From assembly GCF_900258505.1 (NCBI RefSeq), contig NZ_LT984895.1, forward strand, positions 278,313 to 342,312: 64,000 nt of DNA, given 5' to 3'. The position numbers were made by a program, and so were the translations under genes. The notes beneath the pieces are model-generated. The model did not search any database, had not been told where the DNA came from, and saw nothing but the letters and a program-made list of their open reading frames with translations. Below are positions 24,220 through 40,206 of this stretch, one piece after another. Within the stretch, counting starts at the first letter, position 1. Every line of letters starts with the position of its first letter. The DNA comes from Brachybacterium timonense. Lineage in GTDB: Bacteria > Actinomycetota > Actinomycetes > Actinomycetales > Dermabacteraceae.

Positions 24220-24234
24220 GTCGTCGCCTGTGCG

Positions 24235-25131
24235 CTACCAGGAGAGTGTCACCAAAGCAGCCTCGGAATCTTTGACGACGCCCGTCATGGATGCTGTGGG
24301 CAGGGCAGGCGCAGTGGACCGAGTGTGTGGGACGTGCCCCTCGACTGATTCGATGCGCCGCGTGAACCGGAAGTGGCCGCCGGTGGGCGGGCCCGACACG
24401 GTGGCGGACAGCAGCGTTGTGGGCACCAGGCTGACCGCGCGGAACTCGTGGGCAGCGCCAGGTGCACAGGTCACCGGATACTGCAGATCGATCACGCTGG
24501 CCTCACCTGCCAACAGAGGACGTGGCAGGATCACCTCCACCAGGCGCATGGTGCGCCGTATAGCACCCTCACGACCCAGGCTCGCTCCGGCCACCGTTGT
24601 GAGGGTCGTGAGCGTGGTGCCGCTCCCCAGACCCATGGCGTCCAGGGCGACGATGATCCTGTCCAGACCATCGTGCACAGCGTGCACCACATTGCGCTGG
24701 GAGACCTGCCCTTCGTGTTCGTTCTCCAGCTGCACAGTGGTCACCACGATGTCGCGGAAATAGCCGATGGGCTGTGCCAGGCCCCACTCACGCACCAGCG
24801 CACCGCTGTCCGCGCCCAGGCCAGCGATCGTTGGCGCAACGCTCCTGTGTTCGGGGACGTCCCACTGGTACAGGTGGCGATGCAGCATGCCGGTCCCGAT
24901 CCCGAGGACACTCTCCAGGGTGTCGATGAGGGCTATAGATGAGCGGCGTGTGGGGAGGGATGCCGCTGATGCCCAGGACCGCAGTGTTGGTGCCGTGATC
25001 GGCGCGCCGCGCAGGGTCATCTCTTCAGCCAGCGCACGGAAAGACAGTCCGCGCGCAGCGATCGCTTGCGAGAGCGTATCGGCGAACCCGGTGTCCTGCG
25101 TCTGAGGAGTCTGGCGCGCGGTTCGGGTCAC
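24235..25131 (-). CDS. HTH-containing protein of unknown family, paralogue 1
   Basis: The 298-residue product starts with an XRE-like helix-turn-helix region (FADTLSQAIAARGLSFRALAEE...TAPTLRSWASAASLPTRRSS, about residues 16-65) and continues into a beta-rich domain I do not recognise, with no transmembrane helix. It begins at a GTG overlapping the stop of its upstream paralogue by four bases (GTGA). Both share the same plan: HTH, a short helix around L-E-x-x-L, then segments such as LVEVILPRPLLAGEASVIDLQ that resemble EFVFDAPLDKGDITTIEF in the neighbour. A DNA-binding regulator with a ligand or partner domain is the likeliest role. Confidence 0.7.
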   Translation of the reverse strand: MTRTARQTPQTQDTGFADTLSQAIAARGLSFRALAEEMTLRGAPITAPTLRSWASAASLPTRRSSIALIDTLESVLGIGTGMLHRHLYQWDVPEHRSVAPTIAGLGADSGALVREWGLAQPIGYFRDIVVTTVQLENEHEGQVSQRNVVHAVHDGLDRIIVALDAMGLGSGTTLTTLTTVAGASLGREGAIRRTMRLVEVILPRPLLAGEASVIDLQYPVTCAPGAAHEFRAVSLVPTTLLSATVSGPPTGGHFRFTRRIESVEGHVPHTRSTAPALPTASMTGVVKDSEAALVTLSW

Positions 25132-26087
25132 TGTTCGGCCCCCGGCCAGGTCCAGAAGTGTGCGACGCCGCCACCGGAAACCATGTTAGTGCCCTGCGCC
25201 ACGGCACGGTTCCCGCACAGAGCGAGCCGGCGTCGTTCGTGCTTCGTGTACTCGGGGTCGCCCATCCGGGTGCTCGTGCGCTGTTCGATGAGTATCGGCA
25301 GCTGCTCGGGCGAGAAATCCACGCAGATCGTCATCTGCCCGATGGGGCTGGCGCTGCGTAGCTGGTGGCAGGCCTGCCCTGTTTGTGGGGGCTCGGGGCC
25401 GTTCACTGGGGTCACCGTGAACTCGATCGTGGTGATATCCCCCTTATCCAGGGGGGCGTCGAACACGAACTCACTGATCGTCTGTCCGCTCGTGCGGGAG
25501 ACTCGCCGCCTGCCCAGGCGCGCGCCGGACTGCGGTTCGGAGACGCGCACGTATCGCGAATCTTCGGTGAACAGATCGGAGAAAGTAGAGGTGAGAATAC
25601 GGTCCACTCCGTCATCGAGTGCTTCGAGCATCATGGTGCAGGTGGATCCTGCCCAGGATCGGTTCTCGTCGATCCGCACGACGTCGAGGATGGCAAGTCG
25701 CTTCACACCACCCGCCACGGGGAGGCCGAAGTCTTTCTGGGCAGCTAAGAACTCTTCGCCATGTTGAAGCACGATGGCCGGATCAGAGGTGGTTGTCCAC
25801 CACTGTGAGGATCCGGTGAGGGGAACGTGATCGGCATCCACCAGGTAACCAGGCGGGGTGGCGAGGATCACCTCGAGCATCTCCACCGCCTTCTTGCCCT
25901 CGGCGCGTCGTGGGCGGGTGCGGCCGTTGCGCCAGAGTGACAGTGTGGACGCGGAGCAGGAGACATCGTACTGGCGCAGGTGCGCGCAGATGCGTTGCAG
26001 GCCCAGGCCACGGCGCTCGATCGCAGTTCGGAGACGCTCGGGGAACGGGCCATCCGGCCACGGCTCGGTGGTGTCGATGCGCTCCAG
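25128..26087 (-). CDS. HTH-containing protein of unknown family, paralogue 2 (probable CTG start)
   Basis: The frame with ordinary starts begins only at GTG 25886 (252 residues), but reading upstream in frame gives a clear HTH domain (FPERLRTAIERRGLGLQRI...SASTLSLWRNGRTRPRR) equivalent to that of the downstream paralogue. The upstream stop is at 26100-26102, and between it and the HTH there is no ATG, GTG or TTG. CTG at 26085-26087 has AAAGGGG six bases before it, so I place the start there (319 residues). A sequencing error or frameshift just upstream (an ATG lies out of frame at 26103) is the alternative. The C-terminal domain contains several Cys and Trp residues but no motif I know. Confidence 0.6.
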   Translation of the reverse strand: MERIDTTEPWPDGPFPERLRTAIERRGLGLQRICAHLRQYDVSCSASTLSLWRNGRTRPRRAEGKKAVEMLEVILATPPGYLVDADHVPLTGSSQWWTTTSDPAIVLQHGEEFLAAQKDFGLPVAGGVKRLAILDVVRIDENRSWAGSTCTMMLEALDDGVDRILTSTFSDLFTEDSRYVRVSEPQSGARLGRRRVSRTSGQTISEFVFDAPLDKGDITTIEFTVTPVNGPEPPQTGQACHQLRSASPIGQMTICVDFSPEQLPILIEQRTSTRMGDPEYTKHERRRLALCGNRAVAQGTNMVSGGGVAHFWTWPGAEQ

Positions 26088-26255
26088 GTCTGTCCCCTTT
26101 CATCAGGCCCCCAGATCCTCTGGGCAGGGCGAGCGGAATGGGCCGCGTGCTCGGCGAGGTTCGGCGCTATCCGCCGAGACTGATTCTCGCCTTTAGTACC
26201 GCTCGCACAGAAAAGGCTCGTCCAGATGATAGCCGGTTTTGGACAAGCGTCGCGC

Positions 26256-26828
26256 TCAGGGGGTCGGTGTGAGCAGCATCGCGGAGGATGTGAGCGTCAC
26301 CTGCGGCGGGAACAGTTCCATGACCGCGAGCGCAGCGCGGCCGTTCTCCTGTGTCGAGGCAGCCACCGCGTCGGTGACGACGGTGAGGTGCGCACCGGCA
26401 TCGGCGGCGGCGAGCACGGTGGAGATCACGCAGCAGTCCGTGGACACGCCCGTGACCCACAGATGCGCTCCAGAGCCGACCGCGGCCTCGAGCTGTGGCC
26501 CCCACTTGCCGAAGGTCGGCTCATCAATGAGCGGGTGTGCGGTCAGGTCGGCGGCGCCGTCCACCAGGGAGTACAGCGGATCCTCGGCGGGCACATCCGC
26601 GAAGGGCCACGCCTGGAAGTACGCGCCCCAGCTGGTTGATCGATCTGCCGTGGGCAGCCAGCGTGTCACCAGGGTGCGCTGTGGCCCCACGTGCGCGGCG
26701 AGTGTCCGTATCCGTTCGAAGGCTGCTGGGAAGAACGGTGAGGCCCAGTCCGAGGCGGGGTCGGCGAAGATTCGCTGCGGGTCGATCACCAGCAGCCAGG
26801 GATCAGCGGAGGCGGGGGAGGAGCTCAT
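26256..26828 (-). CDS. Isochorismatase-family cysteine hydrolase
   Basis: The 190-residue enzyme has the family's catalytic triad: Asp in WLLVIDPQRIF, Lys in PTFGKWG and Cys in VTGVSTDCCVISTVLAA, with the characteristic cis-peptide VTGVSTD just before the nucleophile. Length is typical (180-210). Members hydrolyse nicotinamide, isochorismate, ureidoacrylate or similar substrates; residues that would choose among these are not diagnostic here. It lies just downstream of the restriction island on the same strand, 36 bp after the Res stop, but is probably not part of it. Confidence 0.88.
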   Translation of the reverse strand: MSSSPASADPWLLVIDPQRIFADPASDWASPFFPAAFERIRTLAAHVGPQRTLVTRWLPTADRSTSWGAYFQAWPFADVPAEDPLYSLVDGAADLTAHPLIDEPTFGKWGPQLEAAVGSGAHLWVTGVSTDCCVISTVLAAADAGAHLTVVTDAVAASTQENGRAALAVMELFPPQVTLTSSAMLLTPTP

Positions 26829-26864
26829 GCTCGAACAGTACGCGGCGGGCGCCGAATGTGGGGG

Positions 26865-29800
26865 TCAGCTGCGTGCACGCGAGAAGAGCTCGTCCACGTC
26901 GGTGACGACGTCGTAGGTCACGGATCCGTCCTGCCCGGCATTGAGAGCGGCGAAGAATCTGCGCGCTGCTGTGATCTTCGCGTTCTCGGTGCCGCGGCGC
27001 TCGATATCGGCGTGCGTCGACTTCGTCTCTGCGACGAAGAAGACGTGCTCGACGGAGCCTTCCGTGAAGGCGATCGCCCAGTCGGGGTTGTAGTCGCCCA
27101 CGGGTGTGGGGATCACGAATCCGTGAGGGAGCTTCGCGTACACAATGACGTCGTCGCTCGTGTCGAGGTCTTCGACGAAGCGTCTCTCGACTGCTGAGTC
27201 GGTGACCGCGTACTCATAGATGTGGCGGTTCAGCTTCGTGGCATGGGTGAGGTCGTACTTGGTGCGGTCGGCGGTGAACAGGGCATCGCTGTGGCGCTCC
27301 TCGCGCAGTGAGTAGCGGAGGTTCTCGAGGATCAGGGTGGCCTTTTGCTCGTTGATGATCCGTGCGCTCTCCCGCAGGAACTGCTCTGGGTTCTGTGCGA
27401 AGCGGGCGAAGGTGTTCGGTGTGATGCGGCTGAGGATCGTGCCGATCGTCCGGCGGGTCAGGGCGGTGTGCTCGGCGAGCTCACCGATGAGGTCGTAGGC
27501 CACGGATGATTCGACGGTGTCGACGGGTGTCTCGCTGGAATGCGCTGCGCGGGAGAAGCTGCGTCCATCGCCGACGTCGTCCGAGGTCATCGAGACGTTC
27601 TGTGCTCCGCGGTCCACGCGGTACGTCATCCGATCCACGTGGAGGCCGTGGTCAAGGGCGGCGACAGAGGACGTGATGAGGGTCTGCGTATCGAAGTCGA
27701 CGTGGTAGGTAGCCCGGCGGTTGATCCGTGACCAGAGCTCACGGAATGTCGGCCCGTCGAACAGTTCCTTGTTCAAGGGGATCGGCTTGGCTCTGCGATC
27801 GTCGGTGGGGGCTGGGATATCGATGACGAGTGAGTCGACGATCTGGGTGACCTGGTAGTGGTAGGGCTCCAGGGCCTCGGGAAGCGCGGGCATCGGATCA
27901 AGGGTGTCGCGTTGGTGCCACAGATCGGTGAGGCGGTCATCGAGGTCGATGAAGTCGTTCTTGGCGAGCCAGCGGCACAGCTGTTTGGCTTCGAGCTCGG
28001 TGATGGCGTGCTCGACTCCGGTGGTGGGGTGGGTGATCTTCTTCCCGGTGAAGAATTCGGGCGTTGCGGCGCGCGGCCGCGATGCGAGGGTTTCGGAGAT
28101 CTCTTTCTGCAGCCCGGTGACGAACTCGGTGTAGCTCTCATCGGTGACGACGGTGAGTTCATTGACCTCGTGTACGCGGGCGGGGTCGTCCACGCGCTCG
28201 CCGGCCTGGTTGACGCAGAGCCGCAGCCCGCGACCGATTTCCTGGCGGCGGGAGATGGTGCTGTCGGATTTCTTGAGCATGCCCATCACGAACACGTTGG
28301 GGTTGTCCCAGCCTTCGCGCAGCGCGGAGTGGGAGAACAGGAACCGCACGGGCTCGCTCTGGGAGAGCAGGCGTTCCTTGTCTTTGAGGATCAGGTCGTA
28401 AGCGGATTCGTCGGTGGCAAGGCCCTTGTCTTCGCCGCGGCCGGCGATCTTCGGGTCGATCAGCCGGTTGGTTTTCTTGTCCACGGAGAAGTAGCCCGCA
28501 TGCACGGCGGAGGCTGTGTCGCGTTGGAGGAAGGCCAGGTAGTCCGCTTCGGCGTCATGGAGGGCGAGGGACTGCTGGAGCTCGCTGACGGCCCGCTGGT
28601 ATTCCTCTTCGAAGATCCGGGCGTAGGTGCCGAGCGTGTCCTCACGCGTGTAGTCGCGGTAATGGGCGACTTCGTCGATGAAGAACAGGGAGAGCACCTT
28701 GATGCCCTCCGCGAAGAGCGAGCGTTCCTTCGTGAGGTGAGCGTCGATGACTTCGCGGATCTGGATCCGGCGTTTGGTCTCGTCCACCACGGTGTTCGCG
28801 GTGATCTGACCACTGTCGATCACGGCGCCGTTGCTGAGCTCGACCACGTCCTGCACAGCGTCGATGTCGGTGATGAACAGGCCGCGGTATGCCTCGATGC
28901 CGCCGGACACGTCGTACAGGTTGGTGCCGTGGTCGAGCAGCCGCATGGTTCTGCGGATCGCCCCGGTGGGGGACTTCGTTTCGATCTCCATGCGGGCGCG
29001 CGGTGCGCGACCTGCGGCGATTTCGATGGAGTCGAGGTACATGTAGGCGTCGAGCCCGGCGATGCCGTGCACGGTGATGCCGCGAACGGCGATGCGTTTG
29101 ACGAGCTTTTGGTTGTAGGCGTCGACGGCGTCGAGTCGGTGGATGAGGGTGCGCGGCACTTTGTGCGTGGCGGAGTAGCGCAGGATGAACAGGCTGTTGA
29201 AGCGGGCGAGCGCATCGAGGGTCTTCTTCGCTTCGAGCCGCTGTGGTTCGTCGATGATGACGATCGGACGGTTCGCAGCGATCACGTCGATCGGCCTGCG
29301 GGACTGGAAGTCGTCGAGCACTTCGTAGATGCGCCGGGCGTCTTTGCCGGTGGCGTTGAAGGCCTGAATATTGATGATCATGACTCGGATGCCGGCATCC
29401 GAGCTGAAGGTCTCGATCTCGTGGAGGCGGCTGGAGTTGTAGACGAAGGCGCGCGGTGTGGTGCCGTAGTCCTGCTGGAAGTGTGCGGCGGTGAGCTCGA
29501 AGCTCTTGAGCACGCCTTCGCGGATCGCAACAGAGGGCACGACGACGATGAACTTCGACCACCCGTACTGCTTGTGCAGCTCCATGATCGTCTTGATGTA
29601 GACGTAGGTCTTTCCGGTTCCGGTCTCCATCTCGATGTCGAGGTTGGGGGCCGACGGGGCAGCGGGGCTGTGCGCGAGGGCCGTGCTGGTGGCTAGCCGG
29701 CGCCGCGGGTCGGTCTGGACGGCGTGGATGTTGGCGAGTAGTTCGGCCTCGGACAGTTCGAGTTCGGCGTTGCGGAATCCGGAGTCGTCCGAGGAGATCT

Positions 29801-29924
29801 GGCGACGAGCCCCGGGGTCGACGCGGTAGCGGGTGGGGTCGCGGCGTGGCTGGCCGGTGAAGCAGTCGACCACGGCGTCGACGGCGTCGGCCTGGAACTG
29901 CTGGTGCTTGAACTGGAGCTTCAC
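26865..29924 (-). CDS. Type III restriction enzyme, Res helicase-nuclease subunit
   Basis: The 1019-residue protein is the restriction subunit of a type III system. It has a superfamily-2 helicase core: Walker A METGTGKT (about 99-106), Walker B box DEPQR (225-229), an SAT motif (LRYSATHK) and motif VI QEIGRGLRL. The C-terminal endonuclease of PD-(D/E)xK type is visible as NPDWA (about 946-950) and AETKS (about 965-969). It starts at GTG 29924 with TGAGGT upstream. It requires Mod (31716-33704) for site recognition and cuts DNA away from unmethylated head-to-head sites after ATP-driven movement. A 124-bp AT-rich gap separates it from the upstream gene of the same operon. Confidence 0.95.
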   Translation of the reverse strand: MKLQFKHQQFQADAVDAVVDCFTGQPRRDPTRYRVDPGARRQISSDDSGFRNAELELSEAELLANIHAVQTDPRRRLATSTALAHSPAAPSAPNLDIEMETGTGKTYVYIKTIMELHKQYGWSKFIVVVPSVAIREGVLKSFELTAAHFQQDYGTTPRAFVYNSSRLHEIETFSSDAGIRVMIINIQAFNATGKDARRIYEVLDDFQSRRPIDVIAANRPIVIIDEPQRLEAKKTLDALARFNSLFILRYSATHKVPRTLIHRLDAVDAYNQKLVKRIAVRGITVHGIAGLDAYMYLDSIEIAAGRAPRARMEIETKSPTGAIRRTMRLLDHGTNLYDVSGGIEAYRGLFITDIDAVQDVVELSNGAVIDSGQITANTVVDETKRRIQIREVIDAHLTKERSLFAEGIKVLSLFFIDEVAHYRDYTREDTLGTYARIFEEEYQRAVSELQQSLALHDAEADYLAFLQRDTASAVHAGYFSVDKKTNRLIDPKIAGRGEDKGLATDESAYDLILKDKERLLSQSEPVRFLFSHSALREGWDNPNVFVMGMLKKSDSTISRRQEIGRGLRLCVNQAGERVDDPARVHEVNELTVVTDESYTEFVTGLQKEISETLASRPRAATPEFFTGKKITHPTTGVEHAITELEAKQLCRWLAKNDFIDLDDRLTDLWHQRDTLDPMPALPEALEPYHYQVTQIVDSLVIDIPAPTDDRRAKPIPLNKELFDGPTFRELWSRINRRATYHVDFDTQTLITSSVAALDHGLHVDRMTYRVDRGAQNVSMTSDDVGDGRSFSRAAHSSETPVDTVESSVAYDLIGELAEHTALTRRTIGTILSRITPNTFARFAQNPEQFLRESARIINEQKATLILENLRYSLREERHSDALFTADRTKYDLTHATKLNRHIYEYAVTDSAVERRFVEDLDTSDDVIVYAKLPHGFVIPTPVGDYNPDWAIAFTEGSVEHVFFVAETKSTHADIERRGTENAKITAARRFFAALNAGQDGSVTYDVVTDVDELFSRARS

Positions 29925-29969
29925 GGTGACCTCAGGGGGCTTGCTTAACTACACACAACTGCGCGGTGC

Positions 29970-30014
29970 AAAAATCAACGATGACCTGCGGTGATGCTGC
30001 CGTCACTGATTTTT
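29970..30014. promoter_or_regulatory. AT-rich inverted repeat in the gap before res
   Basis: AAAAATCA (29970-29977) and TGATTTTT (30007-30014) form a perfect 8-bp inverted repeat with a 29-base spacer. The gap is much richer in A+T than its surroundings. It lies upstream of res on the minus strand and may be a promoter/operator region or a weak terminator for the preceding gene. Confidence 0.4.
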
Positions 30015-30048
30015 CGATGGTTCTGTGGCTGAAAACTGGACATTTCTA

Positions 30049-31713
30049 TCAAAGGAGCTCCCAGCGTGGGGACCCGCGCGATCCCCGGTTGACGATCACG
30101 CCTCGGCGCGCGAGCTTCTGGAGTAGGTTGTGGATCTTGTTCCGCTTCTGGTCCTGGGTGAGTGCGGTGCTCAGCAGCGGGGTGAGGAGCGTATCGATCT
30201 CTTGACGGCTGGCGTGCCCGCGGGACTCCAGGTAGTCGGTGAGGAGCTTCGCGTAGTGCTCGTCGCTCTGTGTTCTCGTGCGGACGTAGTCGGCCAGGGA
30301 GTCGGTTGTTCGGGCGACTTCAGCGCTCACATGAAGATGCGGCCTGCGTCCTTCGATGAGGTTGTTGCGACGCAGTCGCTTTACGGTGGTGTCATCGAGG
30401 GGAAGACTCTTCTGCACCCGATCCAGAGCGAGGACATCGCGCAGATCAAGATCTGTGCGGGCCATGAGCTGGCTAGTGTATTTGGCGTCGAGAACGCTGC
30501 CGTAGATCGTGACCCGTACATGGCGCGGGTCTGAGAGATCGTAGTCGGGTAGTGGCAGGTAGCGCTGGCGTTGGGACTCGTGGATTTTCCAGATGCCGTA
30601 TCCGCGGCGGTCAATCATCTTCACATCGCTCATTGCGCGGGCGAGTAGTGGGTTGCGGTAATGCTCCGGAGGGTGCGGTGTGAAGAGATAGTCTTCAACG
30701 GGGCGTCCCTCGATAAATGTTCCGGGGTTTGTGAGCACCAGTCGGTCATTGTATTCCAGCAGGCTGATGCGTTTCCCTTGAGTCCAGTCGGCGTGAGCGA
30801 GGGCGTTGTGGATGGCCTCGAGAACGGCCTCACGGTCGTACTTGGCAACTTCGGTCTGTATCAGCGTGCCAGGTCGCAGCATTCGGAGCTGGAACGTCCG
30901 GATTCGCTCCCAGATCTTCGTGGTCGTGAGCAGGAATGGAGGGGAGAAGTGCTCGTAAGCGCGGGATTCATCAGGCAGTATCCATGTGATCTCTCCGGCG
31001 TCACCGGGGATGTGATGCTGTGTCCAGGGCCTACCGAGGAGCAGGAGTGCCGCGTAGGTGAGAAGTCCTGAACGCATCAGGCCAAGGCGCGTCAGGAACT
31101 CGGACAGTGGCCAACCGGTGATGGTGGCAAACGGGATGCTGACCTGGTCGGCATAGTTGTGTTGGGCGAGACGGACCGCGTCAGGGTCGAGGTCGTCGAG
31201 GGCTGCCTCTGGGGCGGTGAGCGCGGACCAGTCTTCGATGGGGGAGAAGCGGCGGAGCTGGTCGAGCTTGTCGATCGAGAGGGCGACGAGTGAGTCGCCT
31301 GCGCGGCCGTAGTAGTGACCCTTCCACGCAACAGCTTGACCTGTGGGGGCGGCTGGGATTGCGAAGATCAGAACCCGCCCGTTCGGATGGTCGACCTCCA
31401 TGATGTTCCTGAAGGTCGCGGCGGGAGATGTGTCGTGGTGGATCTGGTGCTTGAGGCCGTCCAGTCTCTTCGGGTCAGGCCTGTAGCTGGTTCCTACGAC
31501 GGCTCGGTCCTTGTCACGAACTCCGAAGACGAGCCACGCATGGTCGGATCCGGCCAAGGACGCCTCGTTGGCCAGGGCAGAGAAGTACTTGCCGAGTTCG
31601 GAGGTGCTGAAGTCCGTCGTTGCTTCCTTGAACTCGACGACTTCGCTCTCGCCAACTGCAAGCAGATGCTCGAGCAGCTGGCGGGGTGAGGTCTCAGACG
31701 AGTTTATGGGCAT
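30049..31713 (-). CDS. Schlafen-AlbA / GHKL-ATPase / winged-helix protein in the defence island
   Basis: The 554-residue protein starts with an AlbA_2 (Schlafen AlbA) domain (ESEVVEFKEAT...GKYFSALANEAS, then WLVFGVRDKDRAVVGTSY; about residues 17-75). Next comes a GHKL-type ATP-binding module in REAVLEAIHNALAHADWTQGKRISLLEYNDRLVLTNPG (about 290-335), and the C-terminus looks like a winged helix (NKIHNLLQKLARRGVIVNRG). AlbA_2 proteins are often called transcriptional regulators, but some belong to anti-phage systems. It starts two bases after the mod stop, so it is made with the methyltransferase. Regulation of the island, or an ATP-dependent effector or sensor, are both possible. Confidence 0.85.
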   Translation of the reverse strand: MPINSSETSPRQLLEHLLAVGESEVVEFKEATTDFSTSELGKYFSALANEASLAGSDHAWLVFGVRDKDRAVVGTSYRPDPKRLDGLKHQIHHDTSPAATFRNIMEVDHPNGRVLIFAIPAAPTGQAVAWKGHYYGRAGDSLVALSIDKLDQLRRFSPIEDWSALTAPEAALDDLDPDAVRLAQHNYADQVSIPFATITGWPLSEFLTRLGLMRSGLLTYAALLLLGRPWTQHHIPGDAGEITWILPDESRAYEHFSPPFLLTTTKIWERIRTFQLRMLRPGTLIQTEVAKYDREAVLEAIHNALAHADWTQGKRISLLEYNDRLVLTNPGTFIEGRPVEDYLFTPHPPEHYRNPLLARAMSDVKMIDRRGYGIWKIHESQRQRYLPLPDYDLSDPRHVRVTIYGSVLDAKYTSQLMARTDLDLRDVLALDRVQKSLPLDDTTVKRLRRNNLIEGRRPHLHVSAEVARTTDSLADYVRTRTQSDEHYAKLLTDYLESRGHASRQEIDTLLTPLLSTALTQDQKRNKIHNLLQKLARRGVIVNRGSRGSPRWELL

Positions 31714-31715
31714 GC

Positions 31716-33704
31716 TCAGATGACCTTCACATCGGTCACGCTGGAGTGCTCGGTGAAGATCTGCTCCACGTTGATCCGCAGGGCGTCGCTGGTGAATGCG
31801 CTGTCCCGGAAGACGGCGCGCAGCGGCTGCAACGCCGCGATCTCGCGTGCGAGTTCTTCGGTGGCGTTCCCCTCGAAGCAGGCAACGAGCGCGCCACCAT
31901 CGACGATGAACACCTCACGCCCGGCGATCGTGGTGCGTTCAATCGGCAACGAGAGTTCCAGCCCCCAATCCAGCATGACCTGGAAGAGCAGGTCCTCGGC
32001 GGTGCGTCCGGACTTCACGCTGCTGACGAACTCCATCACATTGTCCTGGTCGTACGCCGACGGGGTGAGCGTGGTCTCGTTCATGTTCGTGGTGTCGATG
32101 CGAAATGCGCGGAAGCCGAGGTCAGGGTGCGGTGCAGCATGATTCATTGTCTCGCGAAGCTCGTTCCCGGACCGCCGGATTCTTTCCCTGCACAGCGAAG
32201 AGATCGTCTGATGCCCTGCACGCATGGCGGCAGAGTCGGATTCAAGTTCCTCGGGCAGCTGAACTGCGATCCAGCGGCGATGTCCGCCGTCTTCCGCGTT
32301 CAGAGTCATCACGGCATGAGATGTTGACCCGGAGCCAGCGAAGAAATCGAGGATGATCGCGTGCTTGTCGCCGCTTGTTGTGGCATTTATCCATGTCTTG
32401 AGGACGTCGATGTCCTTTGGGTAGTCGAAGACTCTTGCGCCCATAAGACGCGACAAAGAGTCGCTCGCTGGGGCTCGCTCCTGAGAAATAACTGGGCGGA
32501 TGGCCTGATGGCTCATATCTCGGAGGAGTCTCTTGAATCTTGGTGTTGTAGTTTCGTCCTCACCAAAAAGTATATGACCATCCTTTATTCTCTGATCCAT
32601 TGCGTCCTTGGTGAGCCTCCAGCCATTTCGGTGCATGGGTACCGGCTTTAGTGTGGTTGGGTGGAGTACGTCATACATGAGGTTTTTTCTGGGGTTTGGG
32701 CTGGCGAGGTTGTCCCGCGTGAAAATGTTGCCATTTGAGTCGATCTCAGAGTATGCGCGAAGTCCGGCCTCTACGTCCGGTTTTGTTTTCCACCATTCGC
32801 GAAAAAGGTTGGTCGCTTTGGCTTGGTCTCCGTCGGATAGGTCCCATGCGTTCCGGCCTGCCTCAAGAACGTCTTCATATCCAGCCTTAGGGCTTTTGAA
32901 TCTGACGTCGTTGGCGATTAGGGCACGCCTGCTCCGGGCGTAGATGAGCATATAGTCAACTCCGCCGGCAGTGAAGCGCGCATCATTCTTTCCGGAACCC
33001 TGCCACACCGCGTTTGCAAGGAAGTTGTCGCTACCGAAAATTTGATCCATCGCGGCTCGAAGATTGGCGTGCTCGCCATCGTCGATCGCGGCGATGATGA
33101 CGCCATCCTCGGTGAGTAAGTTCCGCGCCAGCTTCAGGCGTGGATACATCATGCTCAGCCAGTCCGAGTGGAAACGCCCGTTGGACTCCGGGTTCGATGT
33201 GAGGCCCACGCCGTCCTCGTCGCGCTGACCGGAGCGCTCGAGGTAGTCCTTCGAGGTCTTCGCGAAGCTGTCGTTGTACACGAAGTCATGCCCCGTGTTG
33301 TACGGCGGGTCGATGTAGATCAGCTTGACCTTGCCCAGGTAGCTCTCCTGCAGGAGTTTCAAGGCGTCCAGGTTGTCGCCCTCGATGAAGATGTTCTTCG
33401 TGGTGTCGAAATCGACGGACTCCTCGCGCTGAGGGCGCAGCGTCTTCGCGATCGGAGCATTCGCGGCGAACAGCGCTTCTCGCTTGCCCGGCCAGTCCAG
33501 CTGGTACCGCTCCTGAGGACCCTCCACCACATGGTCGGAGAGCTCCTGGCGCAGCAGATCGAAGTCGATCCCGCGCGTCACATTCCCCTCAGCGTCGCGG
33601 GTCTCCGTCACCACAGACGGGAACAGCTCCGCCAGGCGATCAATGTTCGCTGCGGTGCCATCCGCCGAATGCATCTTCAGGTGCTCCACGTCGTACTCCT
33701 TCAT
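31716..33704 (-). CDS. Type III DNA methyltransferase, Mod subunit
   Basis: The 662-residue N6-adenine methyltransferase recognises the target and modifies it. The catalytic motif DPPY is at 132-135 and the AdoMet-binding motif FAGSGS at 455-460, in the order (DPPY before FxGxG) typical of beta-class type III Mods. The stretch between them, about residues 250-430, should contain the target-recognition domain, and its DNA (about 32300-32960) is clearly poorer in G+C than either flank, a sign of exchange. The ATG overlaps the stop of the DUF4391 gene (ATGA). It works as a dimer and guides the Res subunit. Confidence 0.95.
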   Translation of the reverse strand: MKEYDVEHLKMHSADGTAANIDRLAELFPSVVTETRDAEGNVTRGIDFDLLRQELSDHVVEGPQERYQLDWPGKREALFAANAPIAKTLRPQREESVDFDTTKNIFIEGDNLDALKLLQESYLGKVKLIYIDPPYNTGHDFVYNDSFAKTSKDYLERSGQRDEDGVGLTSNPESNGRFHSDWLSMMYPRLKLARNLLTEDGVIIAAIDDGEHANLRAAMDQIFGSDNFLANAVWQGSGKNDARFTAGGVDYMLIYARSRRALIANDVRFKSPKAGYEDVLEAGRNAWDLSDGDQAKATNLFREWWKTKPDVEAGLRAYSEIDSNGNIFTRDNLASPNPRKNLMYDVLHPTTLKPVPMHRNGWRLTKDAMDQRIKDGHILFGEDETTTPRFKRLLRDMSHQAIRPVISQERAPASDSLSRLMGARVFDYPKDIDVLKTWINATTSGDKHAIILDFFAGSGSTSHAVMTLNAEDGGHRRWIAVQLPEELESDSAAMRAGHQTISSLCRERIRRSGNELRETMNHAAPHPDLGFRAFRIDTTNMNETTLTPSAYDQDNVMEFVSSVKSGRTAEDLLFQVMLDWGLELSLPIERTTIAGREVFIVDGGALVACFEGNATEELAREIAALQPLRAVFRDSAFTSDALRINVEQIFTEHSSVTDVKVI

Positions 33705-34408
33705 CGGGCATCAGGGCCTGGGCCCACCTCGAGCGCTGTACGCGCTGCCTGCAACGAGCGCAGTTCGCGATGCAGCTCCACTCGACGGTTGAACTGCACC
33801 TCGCGACGCATACGCGACTCCACCTGCGTGATCTGGCGATCAAGATGGCCAGCTTCCCTCATTGTGGCAGCGACCTGGGACACACGAGCGCTACGCGGGC
33901 ACACCACCGGGAGGATCGGCGCCAGAACAGCCAGATACAGCAGTTCCAGATCCGCCGCCGCAGGAAGCGGGCGCCGGGCAGCCGTGGCCGCCTCCCACGG
34001 TCCGGCCGCCATCGGCACCTTCACCGTCGAACCGGCACGTTCCCGCGGGAACGCGACCATGCGTGACTCACGTCCTGCCACGCCGTCCCGCGCGAGCTCC
34101 AGCACCGTCACATGAGGGATCGCCCGGTCGATCAGCGCAAGCACATCCGCAGGCAGATCGTCTGCCCGCAGGTCAATCTCGACGATCACGAACTCCGGCA
34201 CAGCCTCTGTTCCGCCCAGGCCCATCAGCGCGGGGGACAGTGAATACGCCCACCGGATCTGCTCAACATCCTCGGTGAGCGCGGTGCGCAGCGCCGTTGG
34301 AGCTGCCGACCTGCCAGCGAGCTGACGCTTAGGAATCACTCGCCCCATCCGTGCCGCCTCGGGCCAGCGCACCAGGCTGGAAGACGCCAGCTGAGCGTGA
34401 TCAGTCAT
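33701..34408 (-). CDS. DUF4391 protein of the helicase/type III R-M island
   Basis: The 235-residue protein fits DUF4391, a family of unknown activity found beside SNF2-like helicases and type III methyltransferases. The segments VIPKRQLA, EQIRWAYSLSPALMGL, EFVIVEIDLRAD and IDRAIPHVTVLEL follow the family pattern. The C-terminus (ITQVESRMRREVQFNRRVELHRELRSL) is predicted to be a long charged helix or coiled coil. ATG 34408 has GGAG five bases upstream; a GTG at 34414 is possible but too close to that RBS. It overlaps the helicase stop by eight bases and the mod start by four, so all three are coupled. Confidence 0.85.
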   Translation of the reverse strand: MTDHAQLASSSLVRWPEAARMGRVIPKRQLAGRSAAPTALRTALTEDVEQIRWAYSLSPALMGLGGTEAVPEFVIVEIDLRADDLPADVLALIDRAIPHVTVLELARDGVAGRESRMVAFPRERAGSTVKVPMAAGPWEAATAARRPLPAAADLELLYLAVLAPILPVVCPRSARVSQVAATMREAGHLDRQITQVESRMRREVQFNRRVELHRELRSLQAARTALEVGPGPDAR

Positions 34409-37400
34409 CAGCACTCCGGATCGCCACGAACGCCGTCAGCTCCACAGCATCCAGATCGGCACGTGCCTGCGGCGGTGCAGCGGTCATCCCTGGCATGAAC
34501 AGGCTATCCATCACACTGCGCTCCTCAGCCTCCGTGATCGACGCGATCGCAGTGGATAGCAGCCGCGAATAGTTCCCCATACGGGCGCCGTCGGCCGTCT
34601 GGATGTTGAACGGCTCGAACACGGCCGGGATCGGATCAGCGTGCGCGCGGCATGCCATCCGCAGCAGCTCCAGAACACGTCGCGGATTCGTATGCGGCAC
34701 CACCACCTCCCCGCCCTCATCGAGATACACGAGGTAGTGAGGATGCAGCTGGTTCCTGCCCGACGTCGCATCGTCGGCCTTCACCCAGCGCAACGCGAAG
34801 ATCACACCCGGAACCAGCCCCTTCTCCGGGGCGGCGGGCACCACCGTGTGCAGGCCCCGCGGTGCCGTGGCCACAGAATCGTCATCGCGGCAGTGCGACT
34901 GCAGATCCATGTGGAAATCGTTCAAGCCCAGATCCGTGATCGAGACACCAGAGCGGGTGTCCTCCAGATCCACGATCTCGTGCTGAAGGCGCTCCAGCTG
35001 CCGCCGACGGAACGCGGCCTCATGTGACTCCGCGGGATCCAACAGGTTGTCATCCCCGGTTGCCGCCAGATTCGTGATTCGCATCCGGCTCTCCACACGC
35101 TCCACCAGTCGGATGTACTGATCCAAATCCACGTCGGGCCAGAAGTTCACCAGCTGGATCCGTTCGTTCGTCGACCCGATGCGATCCACACGCCCGAAAC
35201 GCTGCACGATCCGCACCGGGTTCCAGTGGATGTCGTAGTTGACCACCATGTCGCAATCCTGGAGGTTCTGGCCCTCACTGATGCAGTCCGTCGCGATCAG
35301 GACATCAACCTCTCGCGTATCCCCTGGCATGAGAACATCCCGCCGCTTCGAGCGTGGAGAGAAGAGTGTCAGTGCATCCGCGAAATCGATGCCTTTGCCC
35401 AGAGTCGATCGTGCGGCCGAGGCCCCACCGGTCACCAGCGCCGTATGGAGGCCGCCCCGCTGCAACGCTGGGGCGACGTTGTCGTACAGGTACTCCGCGG
35501 TGTCAGCGAACGCCGTGAACACCAGGATCTTCCGGTTCCCGTTATTGAGCGGGGACGCGATCTTCTCATCGATCACAGACATCAGCGCCCGCAGCTTCGC
35601 GTCACGGTCCGCATCGATGCCGGCTAGACCCTCCAGCAGCCCCGTGAGGATGAGCTCGTCGGCCTCGAGATCAGCACGGAAGCTCACATCGTCCAGGTCA
35701 TCCAGGTGGATCTTGACCGTGCGGCCCACATGCGTGGGCACCGTGAGGTCATCCTGGGCATCCTCATCGAGGTTCTCCCAGTCCACGGCCTCCTCGAGGG
35801 GCTGGCTGGCATTCAGCGCCGCAAGATCGCTCTGCACCTGATCCAGCACGTTCTGCAGTGTGCGACGGAATGCCTCGACAGAGCTCTCCAGGCGCTTCAG
35901 CAGGTTCGTTGTCATGAGCCGTTTGATGCCCTGTTCGCGTGAGTGAGCCCCGAGATTCGAGATGTCGCCCTTGCGGCTGTTCTGGCCTGCGCCCGCATTG
36001 CCGTACTCCTGCTCGTAGGCCGCCAGACGACTGGGATGCACATAGCTCAGCGGCGTGTACGTCGCGAGCGTGAGATCCGCGAGCCGATCAGCGATCTGTT
36101 CGAAACCTGGCACATCCTCCAGAGTGGTCAGTGCCGGGCGCTCCGAGCGGGGAGGCATGCGCGTGGGGAACGACCCGATCGCGGAGGTGTCGTAGAACTC
36201 CGTCACCTGCTTGCGGGACCGCGCGATCGTGACCGCATCGAGCACGGTGAAGAAGTCCATGTCCAGCATTCGCAGCAGGGCTGTGGTGCTGCGGTCCTCC
36301 GCAGGGCGCTTCGACCAGTCATTGAAGGCCGTCTGCGCACGACGGAACACCTCATCGAGAGTCGTCCCCAGATTCATCTGGGCAGCGACCTGCTCCTCTA
36401 TGCCGTCAACCGCAAGGTTCAGCTGATTTCGCAGGTCGAGGAAGCGGTTGTTCACCGGCGTGGCGGAGAGCATCAGAACCTTCGTGGCCACACCCTCGCG
36501 GATCACCTTGCGCAGCAGCGCGTCGTACCGCGTCTCGCGGTCCTCATGATGGATCGCGTTGCGGAAGTTGTGGGACTCATCGATGACCACAAGGTCATAG
36601 TTGCCCCAGTTGAAGTCGCGGAGCGCCTGACCCATCGATTCGCCGCGGTCGCGCTGCAGGTCGGTGTGTGCGAGAACGTCGAAGCGGAACCTGTCCTCCG
36701 CCAAAGGATTGGAGCGCCGGTTCTGCCGGAACGTGAGCCAGTTGTCGCACAGCTTCTTCGGAGCCAGGACCAGCACCCTGTCGTTGCGCTCCTCGTAGTA
36801 CTTGATGACCGCAAGAGCGGTGAAGGTCTTGCCCAGGCCCACGCTGTCCGCCAGGATGCAGCCGTTGAATCGCTCGAGCTTGTTGATCAGGCCGGTGGCG
36901 GCATCAGCCTGGAAGTCGTACAGGGCCTTCCACACGGCGCTGTCGCGGTAGCCGGTGTGCTCGTTGGGGAGCGCGTCCGTGAAGACCTCGGTGAGGAACT
37001 CGGCGAAGACCGAGTACAACACCACGTAGTAGAGGAACTGCGGTGGATTCTCGGCGAACACACGGCCGATCTGGGCCGCAATCTCCTCGGTGATGTCCCG
37101 CGAGAGCTCCGAGTCCTCCCACAGCGCCTCAAAGCGCTGGAGGAACTGCGGGACCGAGTCAGCGTCGAGCGTCGTGATCAGCTGCGAGTAGCCAGCTGAG
37201 GGTGAGAGCCCAAGATCCACCGTGGTGAAATCCGTGAATCCGACGTACCCCATGCGGTCGCTGATCATTGCGGCAGGCTGCTGCCGCGGAGCGTTCGACG
37301 CACGGAACGAGGCCTTTCGACGCACCCAGTTGGCGCACTCGCGTGCAATGTGGCGCTGGGTGAGCTCATTGCGCAGACGCAGCTCGAACTCCGTGCCATA

Positions 37401-37646
37401 CAGCGAGGACTCCGCGGGATCCCGGTGGTCGACATTGAACACGCGCCGCTGCGAGGATGACCCCTTCTCGAATGCGGGGGAGGTGAACAGGAACTGGAAC
37501 TCCTCAACGGACTCCAGCTCATCGCGCAGGGCCTCGAAGGCGTACAGGGAGAACGTCGCCGCGGCGACGCGCACGACGTCACCTGCCCGGATCTCTCCCC
37601 GCAGATCGTCGACCCACAGTGTTGAGACGTTGTCGATGACCCGCAT
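34401..37646 (-). CDS. SNF2-like helicase with N-terminal PLD-like domain
   Basis: The 1081-residue protein carries a two-lobed SNF2/superfamily-2 motor: Walker A ADSVGLGKT (266-274), Walker B DESH (356-359), MLSATPVNN (motif III) and a C-terminal motif VI QRFGRVDRIG. The first 150 residues resemble a phospholipase-D-like module (strand EFQFLFTSPAF and GYVGFTDFTTVDLGL, the place of the usual G-S-x-N-F-T motif), but the catalytic H-x-K is not visible, so this domain may be inactive. It is the first gene of the island and overlaps the DUF4391 gene. It probably remodels or translocates on DNA in concert with Mod/Res; its exact role is unknown. Confidence 0.9.
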   Translation of the reverse strand: MRVIDNVSTLWVDDLRGEIRAGDVVRVAAATFSLYAFEALRDELESVEEFQFLFTSPAFEKGSSSQRRVFNVDHRDPAESSLYGTEFELRLRNELTQRHIARECANWVRRKASFRASNAPRQQPAAMISDRMGYVGFTDFTTVDLGLSPSAGYSQLITTLDADSVPQFLQRFEALWEDSELSRDITEEIAAQIGRVFAENPPQFLYYVVLYSVFAEFLTEVFTDALPNEHTGYRDSAVWKALYDFQADAATGLINKLERFNGCILADSVGLGKTFTALAVIKYYEERNDRVLVLAPKKLCDNWLTFRQNRRSNPLAEDRFRFDVLAHTDLQRDRGESMGQALRDFNWGNYDLVVIDESHNFRNAIHHEDRETRYDALLRKVIREGVATKVLMLSATPVNNRFLDLRNQLNLAVDGIEEQVAAQMNLGTTLDEVFRRAQTAFNDWSKRPAEDRSTTALLRMLDMDFFTVLDAVTIARSRKQVTEFYDTSAIGSFPTRMPPRSERPALTTLEDVPGFEQIADRLADLTLATYTPLSYVHPSRLAAYEQEYGNAGAGQNSRKGDISNLGAHSREQGIKRLMTTNLLKRLESSVEAFRRTLQNVLDQVQSDLAALNASQPLEEAVDWENLDEDAQDDLTVPTHVGRTVKIHLDDLDDVSFRADLEADELILTGLLEGLAGIDADRDAKLRALMSVIDEKIASPLNNGNRKILVFTAFADTAEYLYDNVAPALQRGGLHTALVTGGASAARSTLGKGIDFADALTLFSPRSKRRDVLMPGDTREVDVLIATDCISEGQNLQDCDMVVNYDIHWNPVRIVQRFGRVDRIGSTNERIQLVNFWPDVDLDQYIRLVERVESRMRITNLAATGDDNLLDPAESHEAAFRRRQLERLQHEIVDLEDTRSGVSITDLGLNDFHMDLQSHCRDDDSVATAPRGLHTVVPAAPEKGLVPGVIFALRWVKADDATSGRNQLHPHYLVYLDEGGEVVVPHTNPRRVLELLRMACRAHADPIPAVFEPFNIQTADGARMGNYSRLLSTAIASITEAEERSVMDSLFMPGMTAAPPQARADLDAVELTAFVAIRSADD

Positions 37647-37763
37647 CGCGCTCCTGTCCTCGGGCGGACCGACCCACGCCCGTCCATCACGTGTTCAGCT
37701 CCTCGATCGTACGTGGCCGGATCCTTCCTCTGGCCGGACGGCCGGGCTGGGATTCCACCAACG

Positions 37764-37805
37764 CTGACGGGGCGGCTCCCGCTGCTGCGAGAACCGCCCT
37801 GTCAG
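37764..37805 (-). terminator. Hairpin terminator after the NCS1 permease gene
   Basis: A 15-bp imperfect stem (CTGACGGGGCGGCTC against GAACCGCCCTGTCAG, two non-Watson-Crick positions) with a 12-base loop lies 28 bases beyond the permease stop. It separates the permease from the defence island. No U-tract is seen. Confidence 0.6.
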
Positions 37806-37832
37806 CTGATGAGAACCGAGGTTGGAGCTGAG

Positions 37833-39299
37833 TCAGCCCCGCCGCGCGAGGCCGTCCTCCTGCCGACGGATCGTGCCGCGGCGCAGCACGAGCGTGACCA
37901 CGAAGCCCAACACGAGCGCGAGCAGCACCCCGAGGTTCGCGTATGCCCAGGGGCCATCCTTGCCGCCGATCGGGCCCAGCAGGTAGCCCTGCCAGTTGTT
38001 CCACGCGGCCTCGTCGGCGAAGGTGTTGACCACCAGGCCCCAGCCCAGCACCGAGGCCACCACCATGGTGCCGATCGAGACCCAGTCGACGGTGCCGTAG
38101 CGGCCGCTCGCGTCGAACAGAGCGTGCTCGTCGTAGTCGGTGCGGCGGGTGAGGATGTCGGCGATGAGGATGCCGGCCCAGGCCGCGAGCGGCACACCGA
38201 GGGTGATGAGGAAGGACTGGAACGGGCCCAGGAAGTCGTGCGCGAAGAACACCACCCAGATGGTGCCGAGCGTGAGGATCACCCCGTCGATTCCAGCGGC
38301 GGCTGGGCGCGGGATGCGGATGCCCAGGCTCAGAAGTGTGAGGCCCGAGGAGTAGATGCCCAGCACCGCGCCGGAGACCAGCGCGAGCACAGCAGTGATG
38401 AGGAACGGGATCAGCACCCACACCGGAAGGATCGTGGCGAGCGCCCCGATCGGATCCAGGGCGATGGCGTCCAGCAGCTCGGCGTCGCTTGCGGCCAGCA
38501 GCAGACCGAAGATCACCAGCAGCACGGGTGCTACGGCGCCGCCGATCGTGTTCCAGGCGATGATCGCTGCGTCCGACGCGGAACGCTTCTGGTAGCGCGA
38601 CCAGTCTGCCGCGATGTTGATCCAGCCCAGTCCGAAACCGGTCATCACCATCACGAGTGCACCGATCACGGCCTGGGGGGAGCCGCTGGGCACTGTTGCG
38701 ACGGCCCCGAGGTCGATATGCGGGATGGCCAGTGCGATGTACAGGATGGTCACCGCGCCTGTGATCCAGGTCAGCACCGACTGCAGCTTCATGATCGTGT
38801 GATAGCCAAGCACGCTCGCCACCACGATCAGAGCCGCCACTGCCGCGGCGGCAGCGATCTTCACCCCGGTGCCGCTGGGCAGACCCAGGCGGGCGAACAC
38901 GGTGGCGGTGGCGAGCACCGCCATGATCGCCAGGTATGTCTCCCAGCCGATCGAGGTGAGCCAGGAGACGATGCCCGGCACCTTCTGGCCGTGCACGCCG
39001 AAGGCCGCGCGGGAGAGCACCATCGTCGGTGCGCTGCCGCGTTTGCCCGCGATGGCGATCAGCCCGCACAGGAAGAACGAGATCGGAATGCCGATCAGCG
39101 CCACCAGCGTGGCCTGCCAGAAGCTGATCCCGAAGCCCAGCACGAAGGAGCCGTAGCTCATACCGAACACGGACACGTTCGCCGCGAACCACGGCCAGAA
39201 CAGGTCTCGCGGTGACGCGGTGCGCTCGGATTCGGCGACGATCTCGATGCCCGTGGTCTCCACCAGGGTGGAGCTGCGGGATTCGGCGGGAGCGGTCAT
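37833..39299 (-). CDS. NCS1-family nucleobase/cytosine permease
   Basis: The 488-residue membrane protein has about 12 helices and the NCS1 start (FWPWFAANVSVFGMSYGSFVLGFGISFWQA), with the family's later segments NIAADWSRYQKR and DWVSIGTMVVASVLGWGLVV. It should import a purine, pyrimidine, hydantoin or vitamin-like base by cation symport. ATG 39299 follows GGAGGGA. No nucleobase-metabolic enzyme neighbours it, so specificity is open. A long overlapping frame on the same strand (37687-39336) is a shadow without membrane pattern. Confidence 0.9.
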   Translation of the reverse strand: MTAPAESRSSTLVETTGIEIVAESERTASPRDLFWPWFAANVSVFGMSYGSFVLGFGISFWQATLVALIGIPISFFLCGLIAIAGKRGSAPTMVLSRAAFGVHGQKVPGIVSWLTSIGWETYLAIMAVLATATVFARLGLPSGTGVKIAAAAAVAALIVVASVLGYHTIMKLQSVLTWITGAVTILYIALAIPHIDLGAVATVPSGSPQAVIGALVMVMTGFGLGWINIAADWSRYQKRSASDAAIIAWNTIGGAVAPVLLVIFGLLLAASDAELLDAIALDPIGALATILPVWVLIPFLITAVLALVSGAVLGIYSSGLTLLSLGIRIPRPAAAGIDGVILTLGTIWVVFFAHDFLGPFQSFLITLGVPLAAWAGILIADILTRRTDYDEHALFDASGRYGTVDWVSIGTMVVASVLGWGLVVNTFADEAAWNNWQGYLLGPIGGKDGPWAYANLGVLLALVLGFVVTLVLRRGTIRRQEDGLARRG

Positions 39300-39356
39300 G
39301 GTCCCTCCAGGGATGGGGGTGAGGCCGACGTCGCACACGGCGTCGTGCGGGAAGGG

Positions 39357-39380
39357 GCGCGCGGGCCGACGGTCGCGCGC
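39357..39380 (-). terminator. Hairpin between VIT-family gene and NCS1 permease
   Basis: A perfect 7-bp stem GCGCGCG / CGCGCGC with a 10-base loop lies about 70 bases past the VIT-family stop. It may end that transcript; no T-run follows. Confidence 0.3.
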
Positions 39381-39450
39381 GGAAGGATCAGCCCCATCTT
39401 CTCAGATGGACCATAGGTGGGGCGCCCGCATGCACGCAGAGCGTCGTCGG

Positions 39451-40206
39451 TCAGGTGGCCACGCCCGCGTTGCCCAGCAGCATGCCGATCACGAAGGTGA
39501 CCGTCAGCGCGAGTGCACCGCCGACCACCACTCGCACCGCGGCGCGCACCGGGTTCGCGCCGCCCACCTTCGCTGCGATCCACCCCGTCAGCGCCAGTGC
39601 CACCAGGGTTGCCGCATAGGTGATCGGGATGCGCACGCCCGCCGGGGGCAGCAGGATCGCAGCCATCGGCAGGATCGCACCGGCCAGGAAGGCGAGGAAG
39701 CTTGCGATCGCGGCGTGCCACGGTGAGGGCACGTCATCGGGATCCACCTCGCCGTCGATCTCCAGGCGCGCCGCGAGCGGATCGCGGCGGTGCATCTCCG
39801 TGGCGACGCTCCGGGCGGTGTCGCTGGACAGGCCGTGCCCCTCCCAGCGCTTCACCAGCTCCTCGAAGGCGCCGTCTTCGTCGTCGGCCAGTTCCTTCTT
39901 CGCCGTTGCAATGGCGGAATGCTCCGCATCGGACTGACTGGAGACCGACACGTATTCGCCCAGCGCCATGGAGACGGCGCCGCCCACCGTGGCCGCGAGA
40001 CCCGCGGTGAGGATCGGACCGACGGCCGCAGTGGCACCGGCAACACCGACGACGACCGCGGCAGTGGAGACGATGCCGTCATTCGCGCCGAGCACGGCAG
40101 CGCGCAGCTGATTCAGGCGCTGCTGATAGCCGGTGGTGCGCTCCGCGGCGCCATCCGGTTCCGGTGCGTCGGCGACGGGGGTGGACGAGGGTGAGGGGGC
40201 GTTCAT
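39451..40206 (-). CDS. VIT1/CCC1-family metal transporter
   Basis: The 251-residue protein has the family start QLRAAVLGANDGIVSTAAVVVGVAGA, the metal-binding helix region VSMALGEYVSVSSQSDAEHSAIATAKKELADDEDGA with its Glu-rich cytoplasmic helix, and two C-terminal hairpin helices. Members move iron or manganese out of the cytosol, in proton antiport in the best-studied cases. ATG 40206 is preferred to an upstream in-frame start because it gives the normal N-terminus. It stands alone, divergent from the pseudogene at 40344. Confidence 0.9.
   Translation of the reverse strand: MNAPSPSSTPVADAPEPDGAAERTTGYQQRLNQLRAAVLGANDGIVSTAAVVVGVAGATAAVGPILTAGLAATVGGAVSMALGEYVSVSSQSDAEHSAIATAKKELADDEDGAFEELVKRWEGHGLSSDTARSVATEMHRRDPLAARLEIDGEVDPDDVPSPWHAAIASFLAFLAGAILPMAAILLPPAGVRIPITYAATLVALALTGWIAAKVGGANPVRAAVRVVVGGALALTVTFVIGMLLGNAGVAT

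Follow-up and report, generated by a model that had tools for sequence, protein, structure and literature searches.

A type III restriction-modification locus of Brachybacterium timonense with a near-constant SNF2 helicase and DUF4391 protein and a candidate back-up gene between mod and res

We analyzed a five-gene locus at positions 26865 to 37646 of a 64,000-nucleotide stretch of the Brachybacterium timonense genome (contig NZ_LT984895.1, positions 278,313 to 342,312), hereafter called the window. The locus is best read as a four-gene variant of type III restriction-modification (RM), composed of an SNF2-family helicase, a DUF4391 protein, and the subunits Mod and Res, with a separate, putative back-up gene inserted between mod and res. 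Judging from homologies and gene neighborhoods, we give this reading a probability of about 0.6. An earlier, sequence-only reading had proposed a composite system of five parts. In comparison with related loci, the helicase and DUF4391 indeed proved to be near-constant partners of Mod and Res, whereas the fifth part, a Schlafen/AlbA-type gene, was missing from 75 of 94 complete loci.

The five open reading frames, listed here in transcription order together with the one sizeable gap, all lie on the minus strand:

34401..37646, minus strand: SNF2-family helicase, 1081 amino acids (aa); PADLOC C3a139 family; conserved N-terminal region of ~230 aa without HKD motif
33701..34414, minus strand: DUF4391 protein (PF14335), 237 aa; GTG start
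31716..33704, minus strand: Mod, predicted type III DNA methyltransferase (N6_N4_Mtase; EcoP15I Mod homologue), 662 aa
30049..31713, minus strand: optional insert, Schlafen/AlbA_2 domain, GHKL ATPase, and C-terminal region, 554 aa
29925..30048, no strand: gap of 124 nucleotides (nt) between insert and res
26865..29924, minus strand: Res, predicted type III restriction subunit (SF2 helicase and PD-(D/E)XK nuclease; EcoP15I Res homologue), 1019 aa

The presence of five genes over this span was confirmed, as were the tight spacings claimed from helicase to AlbA: the helicase and DUF4391 frames overlap by 14 nt (counted from the GTG start), those of DUF4391 and Mod by 4 nt, and 2 nt separate mod from the AlbA gene. 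Another 124 nt precede res; mod and res are thus not adjacent but have the Schlafen gene between them. Searches of these 124 nt for sigma-70-type promoters, for minus-strand terminators, and against Rfam gave no match; two terminator-like matches at 29988-30008 are on the plus strand only. Scanning positions 24000-40000 against Rfam gave no structured RNA, and a phase-variable mod was rejected since a repeat search found no long array (best score, 57).

Mod and Res, already taken for a type III pair in the sequence-only reading, are predicted to be genuine type III subunits that keep the motifs of EcoP15I. PADLOC scored Res at 996 bits (REase_III) and Mod at 728 bits (MTase_III). Mod matched EcoP15I Mod (4zcf_A) with an E value of 2.5e-68 over residues 59-638 and contains DPPYNTG and DFFAGSG, the DPPY and FxGxG motifs of type III Mod proteins. 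The Res family profile matched EcoP15I Res (4zcf_C) over 58-1018 (E value, 5.8e-116), with the PD...ETK nuclease motif of the window Res aligned to that of EcoP15I and with Walker A, DEPQ, and PD...ETK either invariant or aligned across the Res comparison. Among the Pfam scores of the window proteins were PF14335 at 109.7, PF04326 at 57.2, PF13749 at 58.9, PF01555 at 81.4, and PF19778 at 105.3 bits. Of the core proteins, PADLOC assigned Mod and Res to type III systems, gave the helicase the name C3a139, and left DUF4391 unmatched.

The helicase, DUF4391, Mod, and Res are near-constant partners and make up a conserved core. We collected 107 helicase loci by two routes. The first, conditioned on DUF4391, searched for PF14335 in 396 genomes from the phylum and in another set of 396 from the order, which gave 48 stretches, 26 of them with the helicase (27 loci with the window); the second took the best 80 of 583 matches from a helicase alignment scan and is therefore biased toward close relatives. 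At least one duplicate is included (L063 and L094 are the same contig), and some loci counted as complete have split genes (e.g., L096, L121, L127, and L152) or a Res that is truncated where the contig stops. DUF4391, Mod, and Res came after the helicase in that order in 94 of the 107 loci, or in 94 of 98 if loci cut by contig ends are excluded (nine end at or within ~600 nt of a contig end, namely, L045, L068, L132, L151, L157, L158, L165, L169, and L170). The helicase-only route gave the same picture: 71 of 73 loci with room were complete, and DUF4391 came next in 77 of 80, the other three stopping inside the helicase or at its end. The claim that helicase and DUF4391 recur beside type III mod and res therefore held. 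Their pairing goes beyond chance, since the helicase-DUF4391 spacing had a median of -4 nt over 103 loci and was 0 or less in 79 of them; for the mod-res pairs of relatives (n = 75), the median gap was 9 nt. Gene order, whose conservation the sequence-only reading had proposed to check for the whole neighborhood, was thus kept for the four core genes, whereas the AlbA position was optional.

These loci are spread over more than 10 phyla (as judged by record title; some organism names stand for metagenome bins), and the proteins are co-inherited. Pairwise distances over 84 loci correlated at 0.93 for helicase and DUF4391, 0.93 for helicase and Res, and 0.90 for Res and DUF4391. Correlations involving Mod were lower (0.84 with Res, 0.82 with the helicase, and 0.76 with DUF4391), as would be expected if the target-recognition part of Mod changes fast. 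Within one order (396 genomes), the helicase was found in 17 genomes at an E value of ≤1e-100, and 16 of these had PF14335; Res matches above 1000 bits occurred in 14 genomes, all 14 among the 17. On a Res tree (106 rows, made by a quick method that gave long-branch warnings), 78 of 86 helicase-linked Res rows, together with that of L048, stood on one side of a branch with an SH-aLRT of 92. The remaining 8 formed two groups near a sister clade, so that a single origin is not established.

A second set of type III loci was found in 15 genomes of the order (L171-L185; Res, 814 to 904 bits), none of which has this helicase or PF14335. In 12 of the 15 (L172-L179 and L181-L184), another SNF2 helicase lies beside mod-res, without DUF4391; the three of these helicases that were typed were nearest to DrmD, yet under the DrmD cut-offs. 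As for the other sister loci, L180 and L185 reach the contig edge, and L171 has room and no helicase. Ten more genomes had weaker Res matches, and the four examined (L186-L189) gave no helicase match. An SNF2 companion, of one or the other of two kinds, is thus common in this branch of type III systems, and such companions may be general.

The helicase itself was assigned to the SNF2 family by Pfam and family matches. The label "PLD-like" given to it in the sequence-only reading did not hold. It rests on the PADLOC name of C3a139 (HKD+Snf2), whose match begins at residue 164. The N-terminal ~230 residues are conserved across C3a139-type relatives without an HKD motif: the pattern HxKx4-6D occurred in the first 300 aa of only 4 of 107 helicases, at places that are not shared (these helicases, above 1200 bits, differ slightly as a set from the 107 core loci). 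No PLD family was among the 25 of 36 Pfam matches listed for 35 members of the helicase family, nor was any PLD or nuclease family among the Pfam matches of the window helicase. With neither HKD motif nor PLD match, PLD nuclease activity was rejected. These results also bear on the proposal that helicase and DUF4391 are the main effector, with Mod and Res marking self DNA and recognizing the sites, in the manner of DISARM or BREX-related systems. SNF2 helicases do act with methyltransferases in such systems, according to family names and PMC12839542, but here Res retains nuclease and ATPase motifs of its own while the helicase shows no nuclease family, making this proposal quite improbable. 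For DUF4391, the structural model (pLDDT, 92) showed an alpha/beta domain and, C-terminal to it, two long helices that form a hairpin, and a sequence search of the PDB gave only two weak matches (best E value, 0.17). DUF4391 is named in a table of PMC7784981 that has no relation to this locus, and we met no description of the four-gene set in the titles and abstracts of a literature survey that covered few subscription journals.

The fourth protein of the window combines an AlbA_2 domain (PF04326; E value, 3.1e-15) with a GHKL ATPase domain (HATPase_c_4). Residues E22, E27, and K29 of the Schlafen domain and E299, N303, and H307 of the GHKL domain were identical in 19 of 19 loci; E22 and E27 presumably correspond to catalytic residues of SLFN13. 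The gene was found in 19 of the 94 complete loci, each time between mod and res, and its distribution on the Res tree requires at least 11 changes among 87 rows. It also has relatives outside the system: there were 10 full-length matches in 327 genomes, and five of them were in genomes without the helicase (G525, G456, G600, G551, and G693), two of the five lying on contigs of ~4 kb in genomes that are 92-93% complete. The sequence-only reading had treated this gene as an equal part of the system. Because it is present in a minority of loci, is scattered on the Res tree, and also occurs without the core, we consider it to be an optional guest of Schlafen type and not a core member. In one locus, a remnant of a Schlafen-type gene (L152:15976-16245) lies between Mod and a split Res.

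Other genes occupy comparable positions. By a size rule, 45 of the 94 complete loci carry inserts; one of these (L162) is a mod fragment, leaving 44. In the sister loci, in contrast, mod and res overlap or are separated by no more than 12 nt in 15 of 15, with no insert between them (Fisher p, 0.0003 for 44/94 versus 0/15; 0.003 for the 10 of 23 complete loci from the window's phylum versus 0/15), p values that are only a guide since the rows share ancestry and all sister loci belong to a single order. Identified by Pfam or PADLOC, the inserts include families of abortive infection or stand-alone defense. Within the 94 loci, they were:

Abi_2/AbiD in L105; GmrSD in L109; SIR2 with HerA in L155; Fic in L148 and L167
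RhuM (tested in L106, with four relatives by sequence cluster); BRO-N in L142 and L147
AAA_21 with DUF4276 in L130, scoring as HEC-01A/B and more weakly as AriA
AbiJ_NTD4/PDC-S32 in L051; DUF2130 in L139; DUF2779 in L138

Outside the 94, we found OLD-TOPRIM in L047 (no Res) and in L209 of E. coli, DUF2130 also in L209, a UvrD-like gene in L199 of E. coli, and an AAA gene with DUF4276 on plasmid L207; L048, likewise with an insert, is outside the 94 too. A small protein of ~120-130 aa is common to L121, L133, L139, L154, and L160, where it lies between helicase and DUF4391.

Close relatives showed that the internal slots are exchangeable between guests. Of 5426 complete E. coli genomes, 64 encode the helicase over ≥80% of its length, and the annotation was examined in three. 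A UvrD-like gene separates DUF4391 from mod in strain 0H26. Strain H6, whose helicase shares 92.6% identity with the 0H26 protein, carries OLD-like and DUF2130 genes at this position. All that UPEC 26-1 (helicase, 94.4% identity) retains is a 126-nt piece bearing the product name of the UvrD-like gene. In 0H26, an IS30 element lies inside mod (L199:20751-23944), while the annotation indicates no break in helicase, DUF4391, or Res. Among plasmids, DUF4391 was matched in 37 records, of which three were examined: pLS488 of Acinetobacter pittii has the bare four genes, a Citrobacter freundii plasmid has an ATP-dependent endonuclease and a DUF2130 gene as inserts, and pE31A of Aeromonas media has inserts at two places.

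From gene order, homology, motifs, co-inheritance, and the exchange of inserts, we infer the following roles. Mod would methylate adenine in its recognition site, thereby marking self DNA, and Mod and Res together, as a complex of EcoP15I type, would cleave DNA that lacks this mark. The SNF2 helicase and DUF4391 would constitute a second ATP-driven module, dedicated to and needed by Mod and Res, since the frames overlap and the pair is almost always found with this Mod/Res. The long helical hairpin of DUF4391 probably couples the helicase to Mod or Res. The Schlafen/GHKL guest would cut cellular RNA, probably tRNA, once a phage evades or blocks restriction; its family and its position suggest a fail-safe resembling PrrC. 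More tentatively, the core could serve as bait, the effectors in the slots being held inactive by the intact complex and firing when a phage inhibitor disables it, a version that we regard as possible but doubtful. In that case, a single restriction machine would be fitted with Schlafen, AbiD, Fic, OLD, or SIR2-HerA as alarms that can replace one another.

Several observations weigh against this reading of the locus. On the side of the core, four loci with room depart from it, L047 (no Res), L090 and L099 (no Mod or Res), and L141 (a Mod remnant), and G589, with a divergent helicase, has no PF14335 match. In L048, DUF4391, Mod, and Res are kept while the helicase is reduced to a C-terminal stub (L048:9625-10334), so the helicase may be dispensable. 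On the side of the guests, many inserts match no family (e.g., those of L084, L107, L145, and L168, and that of L048), and the Schlafen domain has N at its third acidic position in 12 of 19 loci and D in 7 of 19, leaving it unsure, from the residues, whether the Schlafen protein is an RNase. Furthermore, Schlafen distances over the 19 loci correlate with those of helicase, DUF4391, and Res at 0.81-0.84 (0.50 with Mod), which speaks against swapping alone and fits a long-standing subfamily with losses as well as it fits swapping.

The exceptions in the core could mean that this is an ordinary two-gene type III system, with helicase and DUF4391 as a separate traveling defense unit and the Schlafen gene as a third, so that the genes share their travel but not a mechanism. 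The 12 sister loci without DUF4391 or this helicase indicate that Mod/Res of this kind can do without both, and L048 has lost the helicase, while L090 and L099 carry helicase and DUF4391 but neither Mod nor Res. Set against this are the order kept across more than 10 phyla, the overlapping frames, the distance correlations of 0.93, and the confinement of all 14 Res matches above 1000 bits to helicase genomes, and we consider merely joint travel unlikely. The independent occurrence that the sequence-only reading would have counted against a composite system was found for the AlbA gene, whereas the helicase showed it only in a few exceptions (L090, L099, L141, and G589 with its divergent helicase). 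DUF4391 showed it in one family, f78. This family accounts for the 21 of the 37 PF14335 genomes of the order that lack the helicase (L060, L064-L067, L069-L078, L080-L083, L085, and L088), and in all 21 stretches DUF4391 is the only core gene, save for one 16-bit Res match in L070; DUF4391 thus occurs outside the four-gene system too. In L141, DUF4391 forms the start of a 720-aa protein (L141:13279-15441) with a long C-terminal part that has no family assignment.

With regard to the guest, the Schlafen/AlbA protein might instead bind DNA and regulate the operon. When first named, AlbA_2 was described as a DNA-binding domain, and the N at the third acidic position in 12 of 19 loci points the same way. 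The protein may also end in a winged helix, an architecture reported for such Schlafens in PMC12839542. However, the gene lies mid-operon, is absent from 75 of 94 loci, and shares its slots with toxin-like and defense families, and the paired glutamates are kept in 19 of 19; a regulatory role is therefore improbable. If the four-gene reading with a back-up guest is right, a widespread "type III" set found in many phyla and in E. coli uses two proteins more than textbooks describe, and DUF4391 can be placed in a functional context. The insert slots would represent a natural experiment in how restriction systems acquire back-up effectors, and the E. coli strains with helicases more than 92% identical and differing inserts are directly comparable.

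The surroundings of the locus were examined as well. Its G+C content is 0.59-0.65, against values for the adjoining 10 kb of 0.64-0.69 on the left side and 0.685-0.72 on the right, a contrast that weakly fits acquisition. Flanking genes are metabolic or transport genes where Pfam, the only scan applied there, gives names. A minus-strand frame to the right of the helicase (window positions 37687-39336) has no Pfam match and overlaps a plus-strand frame (37713-39215). A search of 37 further genomes of the genus at 1e-40 gave no match to the left-flank protein. The right-flank frame matched genome G475 at C8:904146, while the G475 core lies at C8:520435, so that the two genomes may hold the system at different places; this evidence is weak because the right-flank frame may be antisense to a gene on the plus strand.

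Among known systems, the closest is type III RM as in EcoP15I (PDB 4zcf), to which Mod and Res are homologous over most of their length with catalytic motifs kept; the present locus adds the near-constant helicase and DUF4391, and its insert parts mod from res. Twelve of the sister loci L171-L185 share an SNF2 helicase gene beside mod-res but have another helicase, no DUF4391, and no insert. DISARM, BREX, and the NF042964 family were rejected as assignments on scores and absent partners. DISARM resembles the locus in uniting an SNF2-type helicase (DrmD) with a DNA methyltransferase, yet the window helicase scored far under the DrmD cut-offs (153.5 bits against 610, and 95.5 against 950). No DrmB or DrmC was among the matches listed for the five proteins (25 of 43 for the helicase), the only ones checked for DISARM partners as the flanks were scanned with Pfam only, and the DrmA match covered the helicase core only. 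NF042964, a phospholipase D-like anti-phage protein that we take to be linked to Gao_RL, likewise has an SNF2 helicase in a defense setting, but the window helicase reached 115.9 bits against a cut-off of 1100. PrrC, an RNase guest inside a type I restriction operon, offers a parallel to the Schlafen gene although it belongs to another protein family and to a type I host; PrrC and PARIS are both restriction-linked alarms. The nearest precedent met in print is the BREX study PMC12839542, where Schlafen RNases fused to a minimal histidine kinase and a winged helix-turn-helix are described as back-up effectors beside BREX loci, and the present locus resembles these in placing a Schlafen with such a kinase-like domain beside modification-based defense, whereas its host system is type III, with no PglZ, BrxC, or DUF499 among the matches listed for the five proteins. 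Finally, PMC2292703 describes GHKL ATPases of MORC type in restriction operons with SFII helicases; the combination of a GHKL ATPase with type III-like or SNF2 helicases is shared, but theirs are MORC/paraMORC proteins, while the GHKL domain here is HATPase_c_4 fused to AlbA_2.

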